Both the position numbers and the translations under genes were made by a program. Source: Microtetraspora glauca (GTDB lineage Bacteria > Actinomycetota > Actinomycetes > Streptomycetales > Streptomycetaceae). Taken from it: a DNA stretch of 64,000 nucleotides. Each line of letters opens with the position of its first letter. The first letter of the stretch is position 1. The notes under the pieces are model-generated. The model was given only the letters and a program-made list of their open reading frames with translations. It ran no database searches and had not been told where the DNA came from. Shown one piece after another: positions 3,353-59,161 of this stretch. The DNA lies in the NCBI GenBank assembly GCA_000721275.1, contig JOFO01000006.1:1-64000 (forward strand), given 5' to 3'.

Positions 3353-3705
3353 GCCCCACACGATAAGCGGGCGCACGGTTCGCGCCGACCGCCGGGTCCT
3401 GCTAACCTTGTGTGACGACCGGCCGGACATCTGTGTGTCCGGCCCACAAGTGGAGGCTCCGATCTCCCACCTGGCCGCCCTCGCGGGCGGCGGGTCACCG
3501 GTCAGGCGGCGCCCATCGTTCCGTACGGACGATGGAGCCGCCCGATGTGCGCCCCGCGGTTGACCGTGGTGGTGCTCCGGTTTCCTTGGAGCCCCGCCTG
3601 TGTCCCGTCGGGGCATTTTTCGTGCGCCCGCTCGGTTGGTCTCATTGATTGTGAATGACGTGTCCGTCCGCCAAGGCGGTCGCGTGGTGCTACCGAGGAG
3701 GATCC
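3353..3705 (+). promoter_or_regulatory. infC leader region with stacked hairpins
   Basis: This 353-base gap holds no convincing gene. A possible -10 TAACCT is at 3403-3408, with a poor -35. Two structures follow: an inverted repeat CCATCGT (3513-3519) with ACGATGG (3529-3535), and a terminator-like hairpin at 3591-3620. A strong ribosome-binding site (GAGGAGGA, 3695-3702) sits just before the ATC start of infC. Long leaders that attenuate infC-rpmI-rplT operons in response to IF-3 or L20 are known in other bacteria; that this one works the same way is inferred. Confidence 0.5.
3591..3620 (+). terminator. Terminator-like hairpin inside the infC leader (possible attenuator)
   Basis: GCCCCG at 3591-3596 pairs with CGGGGC at 3609-3614 across a 12-base loop, followed by ATTTTT (3615-3620). 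A T-run is rare in this GC-rich DNA. The hairpin lies 86 bases before the infC start, so it would stop transcription before the operon unless antagonised. Attenuation is an inference. Confidence 0.55.
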
Positions 3706-43770: not shown

Positions 43771-43798
43771 TTCCGTTCGCGACTGCGCATGCTTTACT
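43771..43798 (+). promoter_or_regulatory. Candidate promoter of the metNIQ leader
   Basis: TTCCGT (43771-43776), a 16-base spacer, then TTTACT (43793-43798). ATG 43806 lies seven bases after the -10, so the transcript would start at the leader ORF itself. Confidence 0.45.
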
Positions 43799-43805
43799 TG
43801 CAGCC

Positions 43806-43892
43806 ATGACCACGACGAGCAGCCGCATCCTTGCGACCGAGGCGAACACGACGCCCGGTGCTCGTTGTATGTGTCGAATGTGCGCCTTCTGA
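43806..43892 (+). CDS. Cys/Met-rich leader peptide of metNIQ (candidate attenuator)
   Basis: A 28-codon ORF ends RCMCRMCAF, with three Cys and two Met codons among the last eight. It lies 211 bases before metN on the same strand and is not part of a longer gene. The candidate -10 is 7 bases before its ATG, so translation is probably leaderless. Its own RNA can fold: AGGCG (43840), ACA and GAC face GTC (43873), TGT and CGCCT (43883-43887), so the Cys/Met codons sit in the 3' arm. A second hairpin CTCGC/GCGAG lies at 43909-43926. Ribosome stalling on Cys or Met codons could switch metNIQ. Leaderless poly-Cys attenuator peptides are known in mycobacteria; this function here is inferred. Confidence 0.65.
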   Translation: MTTTSSRILATEANTTPGARCMCRMCAF

Positions 43893-44103
43893 GGGCCCCC
43901 GCCTGAGCCTCGCGCCCCGAAGCGAGACCCCGACGGCCGAGCCGATCCGCCCGCCTCCCCGGCGCCGGACCGTGCCCGCCCCGCGCACACCGCCACCCCG
44001 GCCGACCGCCGGAGCGGCCCCCGTGCGCCTGACTGTCCGAAAGACGAATGCCCCGTGCACGGCGGACCCACGCGTCGCGCACTCGACAGTGACGGAAACC
44101 CCT

Positions 44104-45174
44104 GTGATCACCACTTCGGGCCTGACCAAGGTCTACGAGTCACGCGGCCGCCAGGTCACCGCCCTGGACGGCGTCGACCTCCACGTCCGCGAGGGCGAGG
44201 TCTTCGGCGTGATCGGCCAGAGCGGCGCCGGCAAGTCCTCCCTGATCCGCTGCGTCAACCTCCTGGAGCGCCCCACCTCCGGCACGGTGACCGTCGACGG
44301 CGTCGACCTCACCGCCCTCGCCGGCAAGGGCCGCCGCGCCGGCAAGGACCTGCGCCGGGCGCGCAGCAGCATCGGCATGGTCTTCCAGCACTTCAACCTG
44401 CTGTCCTCGCGCACCGTCAAGGACAACATCGAGCTCCCGCTGGAGATCCTCGGCGTCCCCTCCGTCGAACGCTCCCGCCGCGCCTTCGAACTCCTCGACC
44501 TCGTCGGCCTCGCCGACAAGGCGAAGAACTACCCCGGCCAGCTCTCCGGCGGCCAGAAGCAGCGCGTCGGCATCGCCCGCGCCCTCGCCGGCGAGCCCAA
44601 GGTCCTCCTCTCCGACGAGGCCACCAGCGCCCTCGACCCGGAGACCACCCGCTCGATCCTCCAGCTCCTGCGCGACCTCAACCGGCAGCTCGGCCTCACC
44701 GTCCTGCTCATCACGCACGAGATGGACGTCGTCAAGACGATCTGCGACTCCGCCGCCCTCATGCAGAAGGGCCGGATCGTCGAGTCCGGCACCGTCGCCG
44801 AGCTCCTCGCCACCCCCGGCTCCCAGCTCGCCGCCGAACTGTTCCCGGTCAGCGGCCACGCCACCGGCCCCGACCGCACCGTCGTCGACGTCACCTTCCA
44901 CGGCGAGGCCGCCACCCAGCCGGTGATCTCGCAGCTCTCCCGCACGTACAACATCGACATCTCCATCCTCGGAGCCGCGATGGACACCGTCGGCGGGAAG
45001 CAGATCGGCCGCATGCGGATCGAACTGCCCGGACGGTACGAGGACAACGTCGTCCCGGTCGGCTTCCTGCGCGAGCAGGGCCTCCAGGTCGAGGTCGTCG
45101 AGGACCCGGCGGAGCCGGGCGCGCCCGTGCTGCCCGCACAGACCCCCGTGCTCGCGAAGGAGAGTGCCAAGTGA
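44104..45174 (+). CDS. metN: Methionine ABC transporter ATP-binding protein
   Basis: 356 residues from GTG 44104 (a GTG at 44089 is an alternative; only GGAAA precedes 44104). Walker A is GQSGAGKSS, the signature LSGGQKQRVGIARAL, Walker B KVLLSDEATSALD and the H-loop LLITHEMD. The C-terminal NIL/ACT-like domain (about 270-340, VVDVTFHGEAATQPVISQLS) binds methionine and inhibits transport when the cell is replete. Operon metN-metI-metQ with a GTGA overlap to metI. Confidence 0.96.
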   Translation: MITTSGLTKVYESRGRQVTALDGVDLHVREGEVFGVIGQSGAGKSSLIRCVNLLERPTSGTVTVDGVDLTALAGKGRRAGKDLRRARSSIGMVFQHFNLLSSRTVKDNIELPLEILGVPSVERSRRAFELLDLVGLADKAKNYPGQLSGGQKQRVGIARALAGEPKVLLSDEATSALDPETTRSILQLLRDLNRQLGLTVLLITHEMDVVKTICDSAALMQKGRIVESGTVAELLATPGSQLAAELFPVSGHATGPDRTVVDVTFHGEAATQPVISQLSRTYNIDISILGAAMDTVGGKQIGRMRIELPGRYEDNVVPVGFLREQGLQVEVVEDPAEPGAPVLPAQTPVLAKESAK

Positions 45175-45839
45175 CCTGGGAAGAGATGCGCCCCCTGCTC
45201 GAACAGGGCACGGTCGACACCCTCTACATGGTCCTGTGGGCCACCGTCGTCACCATCGCCGGCGGCCTCCCGCTCGGCATCCTCCTCGTCCTCACCGACA
45301 AGGGCGGACTGCTCCAGAACCGGCCCGTCAGCAAGGTCGTCGGTGCGATCGTGAACATCGGCCGCTCGCTGCCGTTCATCATCCTGCTGATCGCCCTGAT
45401 CCCGTTCACGACCTTCGTCGTCGGCACCTTCATCGGCCCCACCGCCATGATCGTGCCGCTCGCCATCGGCGCCATCCCCTTCTTCGCGCGCCTGGTCGAG
45501 ACCGCGATCCGCGAGGTCGACCACGGCCTCGTCGAAGCCGTCCAGTCCATGGGCGGCGGCATCCCCACCATCGTCCGCAAGGTGCTGCTCCCGCAGGCCC
45601 TGCCCTCGCTGGTCGCCGCCGTCACCACCACCGTCATCGTGCTCATCGGCTACTCCGCGATGGCCGGCGCGGTCGGCGGCGAGGGCCTCGGCTCCAAGGC
45701 CGTCACCTACGGCTACCAGCGCTTCGACACCACCTTCATGCTCGTCACCGTCGTGATCCTCATCGCCATCGTGACGATCGTCCAGCTCATCGGCGACGGC
45801 GTCGTCCGGCTCCTGGCCCGGCGCGGCCGCGCCGCCTGA
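45171..45839 (+). CDS. metI: Methionine ABC transporter permease
   Basis: 222 residues from GTG 45171. Five membrane helices and the BPD EAA-type loop AVQSMGGGIPTIVRKVLLPQALPSL, which docks to MetN. It opens TWEEMRPLLEQGTVDTLYMVLWATVVT. Two MetI with two MetN form the importer. Overlaps metN by four bases and is 104 bases before metQ. Confidence 0.95.
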   Translation: MTWEEMRPLLEQGTVDTLYMVLWATVVTIAGGLPLGILLVLTDKGGLLQNRPVSKVVGAIVNIGRSLPFIILLIALIPFTTFVVGTFIGPTAMIVPLAIGAIPFFARLVETAIREVDHGLVEAVQSMGGGIPTIVRKVLLPQALPSLVAAVTTTVIVLIGYSAMAGAVGGEGLGSKAVTYGYQRFDTTFMLVTVVILIAIVTIVQLIGDGVVRLLARRGRAA

Positions 45840-45943: not shown

Positions 45944-46798
45944 GTGCGTAAGAACATCAAGCTCACCGCCGGCTTCGCGTCCGTCACCGCCCTCGCCCTC
46001 GGCCTCACCGCCTGCGGCACCTCCTCCGACCCGTCCTCCGCCAAGGACGCGGCCGGCTCCGCCGACAAGGCGCTCGTCGTCGCCGCGTCCCCGACGCCGC
46101 ACGCCGACATCCTGAAGTTCGTCAAGGACAACCTCGCCGAGAAGGCCGGCCTCAAGCTGGAGGTCCGGGAGTTCACCGACTACGTCCTCCCGAACACCGC
46201 CACCCAGTCCGGCCAGGTCGACGCCAACTTCTTCCAGCACAAGCCGTACCTCGACGACTTCAACAAGAAGAACAAGACCACCATCGTCCCCGTGGTGAAC
46301 GTCCACCTGGAGCCGCTCGGCCTCTACTCCAAGAGCCTGAAGTCGGTGAAGGACATCAAGGCCGGCCAGACCGTCGCCGTCCCCAACGACACCACCAACG
46401 AGGGCCGCGCGCTCCACCTCCTCGCCGAGAACGGCCTCATCACCCTCAAGGACGGCGTCGGCACCGACGCCAAGCTCTCCGACATCACCGACAAGAAGGG
46501 CCTGGAGTTCAAGGAGCTGGAGGCCGCCACCGTGCCCCGCGCCCTGAGCGACGTCGACGCCGCCGTCATCAACGGCAACTACGCGATCGAGGCCGACCTG
46601 TCCCCGGCGAAGGACGCCCTGGTCCTGGAGAAGGCCGAGGGCAACCCGTACGCCAACTTCCTCGCCGTCAAGGAGGGCAACGAGAAGGACGCCCGCGTGC
46701 AGAAGCTCGCCGAGCTCCTCAACTCGCCCGAGACCAAGAAGTACATCGAGGACACCTACAAGGGCTCCGTCATCCCGGCCTTCGGCGCCGCCAAGTAA
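45944..46798 (+). CDS. metQ: Methionine-binding lipoprotein
   Basis: 284 residues from GTG 45944, behind AGGAAAGAGG. A lipoprotein signal ends in the lipobox LTAC (Cys about residue 23). The NlpA/MetQ fold shows VVAASPTPHADILKFVKDNL, FTDYVLPNTATQSGQVDANFFQH and VPNDTTNEGRALHLL. It captures methionine (and possibly its D-form or peptides) outside the membrane and delivers it to MetI. Last gene of the operon; a 14-bp terminator follows. Confidence 0.96.
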   Translation: MRKNIKLTAGFASVTALALGLTACGTSSDPSSAKDAAGSADKALVVAASPTPHADILKFVKDNLAEKAGLKLEVREFTDYVLPNTATQSGQVDANFFQHKPYLDDFNKKNKTTIVPVVNVHLEPLGLYSKSLKSVKDIKAGQTVAVPNDTTNEGRALHLLAENGLITLKDGVGTDAKLSDITDKKGLEFKELEAATVPRALSDVDAAVINGNYAIEADLSPAKDALVLEKAEGNPYANFLAVKEGNEKDARVQKLAELLNSPETKKYIEDTYKGSVIPAFGAAK

Positions 46799-58589: not shown

Positions 58590-58661
58590 TGCGCGATACT
58601 GGGATTGAACCAGTGACCTCTTCCGTGTCAGGGAAGCGCTCTCCCGCTGAGCTAATCGCGC
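58590..58661 (-). tRNA. tRNA-Val (GAC), copy 4 in transcription order
   Basis: 72 bases with full cloverleaf: acceptor GCGCGAT/ATCGCGC, D arm AGCTCAGCGGGAGAGC, anticodon loop CTGACAC, T arm GGTTCAATCCC. Discriminator A. No encoded CCA. Last gene of the operon. Confidence 0.95.
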
Positions 58662-58693
58662 GGGATACACCCCGAGGGGTGCGGCAGGCGTGG

Positions 58694-58765
58694 TGCGCGA
58701 TACTGGGATTGAACCAGTGACCTCTTCCGTGTCAGGGAAGCGCTCTCCCGCTGAGCTAATCGCGC
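58694..58765 (-). tRNA. tRNA-Val (GAC), copy 3
   Basis: Identical to the copy at 58590. The unit including its spacer repeats at 104 bases. The spacer forms a small hairpin of CACCCC and GGGGTG. Confidence 0.95.
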
Positions 58766-58797
58766 GGGACGCACCCCGAGGGGTGCGGGAGATGTGG

Positions 58798-58869
58798 TGC
58801 GCGATACTGGGATTGAACCAGTGACCTCTTCCGTGTCAGGGAAGCGCTCTCCCGCTGAGCTAATCGCGC
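58798..58869 (-). tRNA. tRNA-Val (GAC), copy 2
   Basis: Identical to the copies at 58590 and 58694; it starts 104 bases from the next. Confidence 0.95.
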
Positions 58870-58902
58870 GGGGATCCGAAGATCCAGGACCCGGGGGTCC
58901 AG

Positions 58903-58974
58903 TGGACGATACTGGGATTGAACCAGTGACCTCTTCCGTGTCAGGGAAGCGCTCTCCCGCTGAGCTAATCGTCC
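58903..58974 (-). tRNA. tRNA-Val (GAC), variant acceptor stem
   Basis: Same body as the other three copies, but the acceptor is GGACGAT/ATCGTCC with compensatory changes on both strands. Anticodon GAC; discriminator A. It is first of the four Val genes. Confidence 0.95.
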
Positions 58975-58978
58975 TTGG

Positions 58979-59049
58979 AGGTGGAGACGGGATTTGAACC
59001 CGTGTAGACGGCTTTGCAGGCCGTTGCCTCGCCTCTCGGCCACTCCACC
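58979..59049 (-). tRNA. tRNA-Cys (GCA)
   Basis: 71 bases: acceptor GGTGGAG/CTCCACC, anticodon loop CTGCAAA, T arm GGGTTCAAATCCC, discriminator U as usual for Cys. Four bases separate it from the first Val gene. Confidence 0.95.
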
Positions 59050-59088
59050 AGGAGTGATAACGGGGGTTCGGGAAGATCCCCCACATCG

Positions 59089-59161
59089 AGCGGACGACGA
59101 GATTCGAACTCGCGACCCTCACCTTGGCAAGGTGATGCTCTACCAACTGAGCCACGTCCGC
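59089..59161 (-). tRNA. tRNA-Gly (GCC)
   Basis: 73 bases: acceptor GCGGACG/CGTCCGC, anticodon loop TTGCCAA, T arm GAGTTCGAATCTC, discriminator U. First gene of the operon, 42 bases after the -10 of its promoter. Confidence 0.95.

Follow-up and report, generated by a model that had tools for sequence, protein, structure and literature searches.

A metL-type leader ORF with Cys and Met codons, and a hairpin that follows it, upstream of metNIQ in Streptomycetaceae

The leader ORF and its conservation

In Microtetraspora glauca, the genes of the methionine transporter are preceded by a 28-codon ORF that ends in a run of Cys and Met codons, which raises the question of whether this ORF is an accident of the sequence or a leader that could couple transporter expression to the supply of these amino acids. 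The window analysed here is the whole stretch of 64,000 nucleotides (contig JOFO01000006.1, forward strand), and all positions refer to it. The original prediction had described the ORF, its RCMCRMCAF end, a TTTACT hexamer 7 nt before its ATG and a distance of 211 bases to metN, all of which was confirmed (Table 1). Downstream of the leader ORF, metN, metI and metQ follow in this order as an operon; their top NCBIfam models were MetN (score under the curated cut-off), MetI (just under the cut-off) and MetQ/NlpA (under the cut-off), respectively. We placed the metN start at the GTG at 44104; an in-frame upstream GTG at 44086 was considered and rejected, this codon not being conserved (L040).

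Table 1. Features of the metNIQ upstream region and operon (positions in the window)
Feature	Position	Strand	Remarks
Extended -10-like element TGCTTTACT (TG-n-TTTACT)	43790..43798	+	TG present in aligned promoters
metL-type leader ORF	43806..43892	+	28 codons and stop, leaderless position; peptide MTTTSSRILATEANTTPGARCMCRMCAF
Hairpin ahead of the Cys/Met codons, 5' arm	43812..43820	+	Pairs with 43860-43868 in predicted folds
Same hairpin, 3' arm	43860..43868	+	Ends on the first Cys codon; predicted folds
Candidate Cys/Met sensor codons TGT ATG TGT CGA ATG TGC	43866..43883	+	Codons counted over 108 leaders
GAGGGCC	43891..43897	+	Overlaps and follows the leader stop; conserved
Hairpin E, CTCGC-GCCCCGAA-GCGAG	43909..43926	+	Conserved 3' of the leader stop
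Region F, GCGCACTCGACA	44077..44088	+	Complement of TGTCGA(AT)GTGCGC in the leader; ends 5 nt short of the metN GGAA
Putative metN ribosome-binding site GGAA	44094..44097	+	Read from the sequence; recurrent among aligned regions
metN	44104..45174	+	ATPase with NIL domain; Pfam ABC_tran and NIL
metI	45171..45839	+	Permease; Pfam BPD_transp_1
metQ	45944..46798	+	Substrate-binding lipoprotein; Pfam Lipoprotein_9

The original prediction held that no metNIQ leader had been described in Streptomyces. This does not stand: Table 4 of PMC8079986 (2021) gives metL of S. lividans TK24 (MSTTSDRTPATEATTTPGARCMCRRMCAF) as an attenuator located ahead of metNIQ, with a leaderless start mapped by RNA-seq. According to that entry, metL occupies the same position as the leader of the window and carries the Cys/Met block RCMCRRMCAF where the window has RCMCRMCAF. 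The window leader, ending in R-C-M-C-R-(R)-M-C upstream of metNIQ, therefore belongs with the metL orthologs, and the peptide at another of our loci (L057) is letter-identical to S. lividans metL, the end of which was found, among openly licensed PMC papers, only in PMC8079986. The passages of that paper devoted to metL name methionines and threonines as its notable residues and mention several hairpin structures and the lack of a typical Rho-independent terminator, its mode of termination being given as unclear; these passages contain no species comparison and no specific description of the hairpin that we call E. The metNIQ leader is thus already known, and what is added here is the conservation of its Cys and Met codons, the comparison within and across families, and hairpin E.

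A search of 200 family genomes identified MetN in 170, and upstream regions were taken from 110 of these, the window included; the other 60 include all of genera g2-g5. A leader was scored when TTTACT, TTAACT or TTGACT was followed 4-11 nt on by an ATG opening an ORF with a Cys within its last 14 letters. A leader of the metL type was present ahead of metN in 109 of the 110 Streptomycetaceae regions, the presence of one Cys being partly by construction of this rule. The single miss (L106) nonetheless has an ORF ending in RMCRMCA, in a longer frame. The alignment of streptomycetes that had been proposed as a check found the reading frame and the C-terminal Cys/Met codons conserved. The claim that the Cys/Met run is not due to chance was also borne out, as 61 of 150 genomes from the genus contained the exact DNA pattern for CMCRMC, each a single time, and the reversed pattern was present in 1 of 150. 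A pattern combining promoter and leader was present in 19 of 28 genus genomes and in 1 of 268 others, this one being an unrelated sequence. Later counts cover 108 regions, since L139, in which the metN start was not recognised, was dropped.

The distance from the ATG to the CGAATG at the leader end was divisible by 3 in all 105 regions (105 of 105) in which the two sites could be located irrespective of frame, with ten different lengths between 66 and 99 nt; the five not measurable out of 110 were L106 and four with CGC or CTC replacing CGA. Unlike this distance, the one between the stop codon and hairpin E was spread over all three phases (53, 18 and 18 regions). Insertions in the leaders consist of duplicated MC or RMC units, as in RCMCRLMCRMCAC and MCRMCHMCRMCA. 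Attenuators of the leader peptide class have a translated short ORF ahead of amino acid genes; the leader, with its frame kept and placed next to metN, metI and metQ, is probably such an ORF. We conclude from these comparisons that the leader ORF is real and under selection.

In the aligned promoters, the TG ahead of the variable base was present in 100% (rounded) of the 108 regions, and the hexamer of the window (43793-43798) was conserved as well, partly by construction because it belonged to the search rule. The spacer between hexamer and ATG, which was free to range over 4-11 nt, was 7 nt long in 79 of the 109 leaders and 6 nt long in the other 30. A promoter scan found no sigma-70 consensus pair at the locus. 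By analogy with the RNA-seq result for the S. lividans ortholog, which this geometry fits, the metNIQ transcript of this genome probably begins at the leader ATG or close to it.

A second conserved short ORF, with the peptide pattern RCRxAHxPQPPGTxC, was observed between leader and metN, roughly at -240 to -100 from metN, in g6, g9, g13, g16 and two g7 genomes (loci L092, L093, L095, L096, L101, L103, L105, L108 and L111). Rfam gave no match over eight of these nine loci (all except L092), and the L093 peptide of this ORF had no match in NCBIfam.

Codons and RNA structures at the leader end

Over the 108 leaders, the last 12 residues were composed of 23.6% Cys and 15.5% Met, as against 2.4% and 3.3% in the remainder of the leader. 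All 108 had at least one Cys and at least one Met among these residues; a single Cys was present in four, and L113, L117 and L137 had just one Met and one Cys. The relevant codons are therefore clustered at the leader end, as in attenuators, one Cys having been required by the search rule. Past Met-Cys, one or two variable residues follow (AF, AC, DR, HC, among others), and the segment ahead of the Met-Cys end varied in length and sequence, with the N-terminal half being conserved in Streptomyces (MTTTSSR-LATEA).

The codons themselves were also constrained. CGA preceded the last ATG in 104 of 108 leaders, and the codon after this ATG was TGT in 55, TGC in 37 and CGC in 16. In a reference of 32 genes (30 metN together with metI and metQ of the window), CGA accounted for 12 of 856 Arg codons; likewise, TGT made up 215 of 346 leader Cys codons vs 2 of 63 in the reference. 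These preferences lie far above normal usage, suggesting that selection acts on rare codons or RNA letters in addition to the amino acids. CGA may be decoded slowly, and the CGAATG core may resemble a tRNA T loop.

We then come to the folding of the leader RNA. In predicted folds, a stem formed by the two arms listed in Table 1 encloses smaller hairpins; the folds have modest z-scores (-2.0 and -2.3 vs shuffles). Anchoring was possible for 83 of 108 leaders, in which 94.6% of the cells of the two arms were paired; 500 arm shuffles averaged 91.8% and reached at most 92.8%, a comparison that is not a probability as the leaders are related by descent, and sliding the partner by 1-3 positions gave 21-64%. 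The 25 leaders left out of this helix test were all 20 of g14, two of g1 (the genus of the window), two of g11 and one of g12. One clear compensatory pair was detected; it is G-C in 55 leaders and A-T in 24, and the exchange alters the two amino acids encoded. The original prediction had put the Cys/Met codons in the 3' arm of another hairpin (43840-43852 with 43873-43887). When the whole leader was folded, alone or extended by the sequence after it, this hairpin had an expected pair count of 0.00; in the whole-leader fold, 43841-43844 pairs with 43852-43855. It did form when the segment 43840-43887 was folded alone (-19.0 kcal/mol), and pairing of its arms averaged -9.6 (range -13.4 to -3.8) over 42 leaders from Streptomyces that are 87 nt long. 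According to these predictions, it could be a transient form, for example with a ribosome positioned on the 5' arm.

The further hairpin-forming sequence that had been predicted before metN is indeed there, and one hairpin in it, E, is near-invariant. It was present in 90 of 108 regions, its 8-base loop being identical in 89 and its stem in 84 of these 90; the six stem variants comprised three with a wobble pair, one compensatory (L128) and two with one broken pair. The 18 regions lacking hairpin E belonged to g7 (ten), g14 (seven) and g8 (one). In a sample of 394 genomes of the class, which contained no further genus of the window's family, exact hairpin E was found in 36: 35 of the 40 from the window's genus and 1 of 354 others; this lone case, in family f17, precedes metN behind a leader ending in CTCRCRMCSH. 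Hairpin E as a repeated element was rejected: allowing up to two mismatches, the genome of the window contains a single copy. A search of openly licensed PMC papers yielded neither the core string of hairpin E nor this genome's peptide end. Hairpin E thus appears to be undescribed, with no counterpart in Rfam or in these papers. As to its role, RNA polymerase pausing or the binding of a factor would be our guess.

The GAGG at the leader stop was also conserved, lying inside the 12 nt that start at the stop codon in 104 of 108 regions. GAGGGCCCC (43891-43899) was retained where the stop is TAG and not TGA, and it could act as a mimic of a Shine-Dalgarno sequence or pair, GGGC to GCCC, with the loop of hairpin E.

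In the minimum free energy fold of 43806-44125, the leader end was paired with Region F, with 8.7 expected pairs. In g1, the duplex between leader end and metN region had a mean of -17.2, vs -11.1 with the region shuffled. TCGACA was present in 69 of 108 regions (0 of 20 in g14), and both TGTCGA and TCGACA in 56 of 108; in 13 of the 69 TCGACA genomes, the leader side was changed without compensation. For g14, a longer duplex was weaker than the shuffled one (-19.2 vs -22.4). When partners were swapped between genera, the leaders of all three large genus groups paired best with the g1 region, hence we saw no sign of co-adaptation. Mean ensemble pairing per base between leader end and metN region was 0.30 in g1 (57 regions) and 0.20 in g7 (8 regions). 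As a universal mechanism, this pairing was rejected, since it is missing in g14, often uncompensated and shows no co-adaptation. From the folding models, closing of the metN ribosome-binding site by the leader end is plausible in Streptomyces, and is not general. Of the mutually exclusive structures that an attenuator should have, the leader hairpin was seen to be conserved, and the helix that would close metN was seen in part of the family.

Readings of the control of metNIQ

The explanation that we consider probable is ribosome-mediated attenuation of metNIQ by a leaderless ORF sensing charged tRNA-Cys and/or tRNA-Met. The leaderless-type leader and the Cys/Met codons beside the stop fit the attenuation layout that had been foreseen; the hairpin on which that layout relied does not belong to the whole-leader fold. 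In this mechanism, the first ribosome would translate the 28 leader codons from a transcript beginning at or near the ATG. If charged tRNA-Cys or tRNA-Met were scarce, the ribosome would stall on the Cys/Met codons before the stop, and by doing so would block pairing of the leader end with the stretch upstream of the metN ribosome-binding site, allowing metN to be translated. With both plentiful, the ribosome would finish and leave, the long-range pairing would form and metN expression would be low. The leader would then sense both amino acids, and we infer that codon supply controls metN expression. Changes of the candidate regulatory codons of S. coelicolor ilvB were without effect, as stated in the part of PMC1262725 (2005) on that gene, a result which counts against codon sensing. 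The three leaders with a single Met and a single Cys at the end, the partial constraint on nucleotides and the distant metN loci that pass a Cys/Met short-ORF test (see below) also weigh against it.

Within attenuation, we place the chance that the output is translational at a little under even. The same sensing leader could instead act through Rho, a possibility that we take seriously while thinking it the less likely course, and which overlaps with our confidence in attenuation as such. Once the ribosome has gone, Rho would load on the naked C-rich spacer and stop transcription before metN, and a stalled ribosome would block this. No intrinsic terminator (a GC-rich hairpin with a U tract) was found between 43500 and 44150. 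The spacer has 45.6% C, with a C-over-G skew of 0.22 (sd 0.04) over the 108 regions vs 0.05 (sd 0.08) upstream of the promoter, and Rho has been suggested for mycobacterial cys leaders in the passage of PMC1262725 concerned with them. However, C richness does not prove a rut site, folding predictions give the spacer structure, and the lineage-specific pairing with the metN region would be left unexplained. We slightly favour translation over Rho because the statement on M. smegmatis cysteine genes in PMC13236596 is that they are regulated by translation attenuation.

Stalling could also be caused by the nascent peptide or the RNA, and not by missing charged tRNA, if the leader were an arrest peptide or a sensor of a small molecule such as S-adenosylmethionine or cysteine. 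The CGA found before almost every last ATG and rarely in the reference genes would suit such a reading, as would the near-invariance of hairpin E in both loop and stem. Yet an arrest or sensor element is hard to reconcile with the variable residues after Met-Cys and the variable length and sequence of the preceding segment, and some f17 leaders retain Cys and Met within other sequences. In addition, the Rfam covariance models gave no match over 43780-44110 up to E = 5. We thus regard it as unlikely.

Hairpin E might alternatively be an inverted repeat in the DNA serving as operator for a repressor downstream of the start site, the leader being secondary. The two-arm symmetry with compensatory changes (L128 and, in f17, L202) is also expected of a palindromic operator, but the asymmetric 8-base loop is conserved as strongly as the arms, only one copy exists in the genome at up to two mismatches, and hairpin E lies about 100 nt inside the transcript; an operator is accordingly quite improbable. 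That the leader peptide functions in trans, as the conserved N-terminal half in Streptomyces might suggest, is scarcely credible given that this half doubles as an arm of the conserved RNA hairpin and largely differs in g14 and f17.

A further-reaching version of the attenuation reading is that the leader is a dual Cys and Met sensor and hairpin E a new cis RNA module, read by a factor or by RNA polymerase, that enables attenuation without a terminator in two actinobacterial families. We put this forward as a speculative and rather doubtful proposal. If the Cys codons matter as the Met codons do, methionine import in Streptomyces would answer to the supply of sulfur amino acids as a whole; through transsulfuration, imported methionine would be expected to feed cysteine as well. 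Hairpin E could likewise show how attenuation proceeds in high-GC bacteria that do without U-tract terminators. With these data, metL goes from a single S. lividans table entry to a family-wide element with candidate sensor codons, a kept frame and two predicted hairpins.

Leaders in family f17 and in other known systems

The comparison was extended to family f17, in which MetN was found in 38 of 80 genomes and 30 loci were taken. Four of these (L201-L204) had the same leader end and hairpin E form, two matching the motif and two being variants, and L202 contained a second compensatory change of hairpin E (CTCAC/GTGAG). Among the remaining 26, 12 had a short ORF whose last 12 residues contained two or more Cys and one or more Met; the reverse strand gave 0 of 26, and 20 shuffles averaged 0.45 (maximum 2). 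In the other 14 of the 26, no short ORF passed this Cys/Met test. Some of the 12 passing ORFs, for instance L205, may be accidental. As these 12 pass without hairpin E, part of f17 has Cys and Met codons together where the hairpin is absent. The retention of Cys as well as Met codons, as read from the sequences and including part of f17, is new here. Cys/Met-rich short ORFs with other ends (GGCCLMRG, GGCCRMSR, CRMCR) were observed at the f17 loci L208, L213, L215, L221, L222 and L223, and perhaps represent a wider class of such leaders.

MetN was also aligned against named genomes, the best 80 loci being mostly from distant phyla. Among these 80, the leader was present in 6 of 6 Streptomyces, which supports Streptomyces as the window's genus, and hairpin E in 5 of 6; the Actinoplanes locus had neither. 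With a lower length limit, 7 of 70 distant, non-actinobacterial metN loci of this set passed the Cys/Met short-ORF test.

The leader resembles several known systems without coinciding with any of them. The conserved Cys-rich uORFs of mycobacteria, as presented in PMC4633059, share with it a leaderless layout, Cys codons near the end and a position upstream of sulfur genes. As far as this account goes, they have Cys clusters before cysteine genes, whereas the window has Met and Cys alternating with Arg, a methionine importer downstream and hairpin E; a run of consecutive Cys codons, as in the mycobacterial polycysteine class, is not found in the window leader. Cys leaders in mycobacteria and others are also mentioned in PMC1262725, where the treatment of Actinobacteria methionine operons reports no conserved RNA structures before them. 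From the description of the LEU element of actinobacterial leuA in the same paper, its leader codon run can likewise pair with the downstream region of the ribosome-binding site; the LEU element has Leu codons and a pseudoknot, and in the window's family pairing is seen in only part of the members. The Streptomyces trp attenuators, as outlined there, also have a leader peptide with regulatory codons, and in contrast to them the window locus has no U-tract terminator.

At the gathering threshold, Rfam gave no match at the leader in the window and 20 related loci, and the leader peptide had no match in NCBIfam. Elsewhere in the window, Rfam matched the Streptomyces RNA Scr1601 (RF02830) at 3414-3621 with 173 bits, and a cluster of six tRNAs on the minus strand at 58590-59161, three of which share a score of 68.9 bits.
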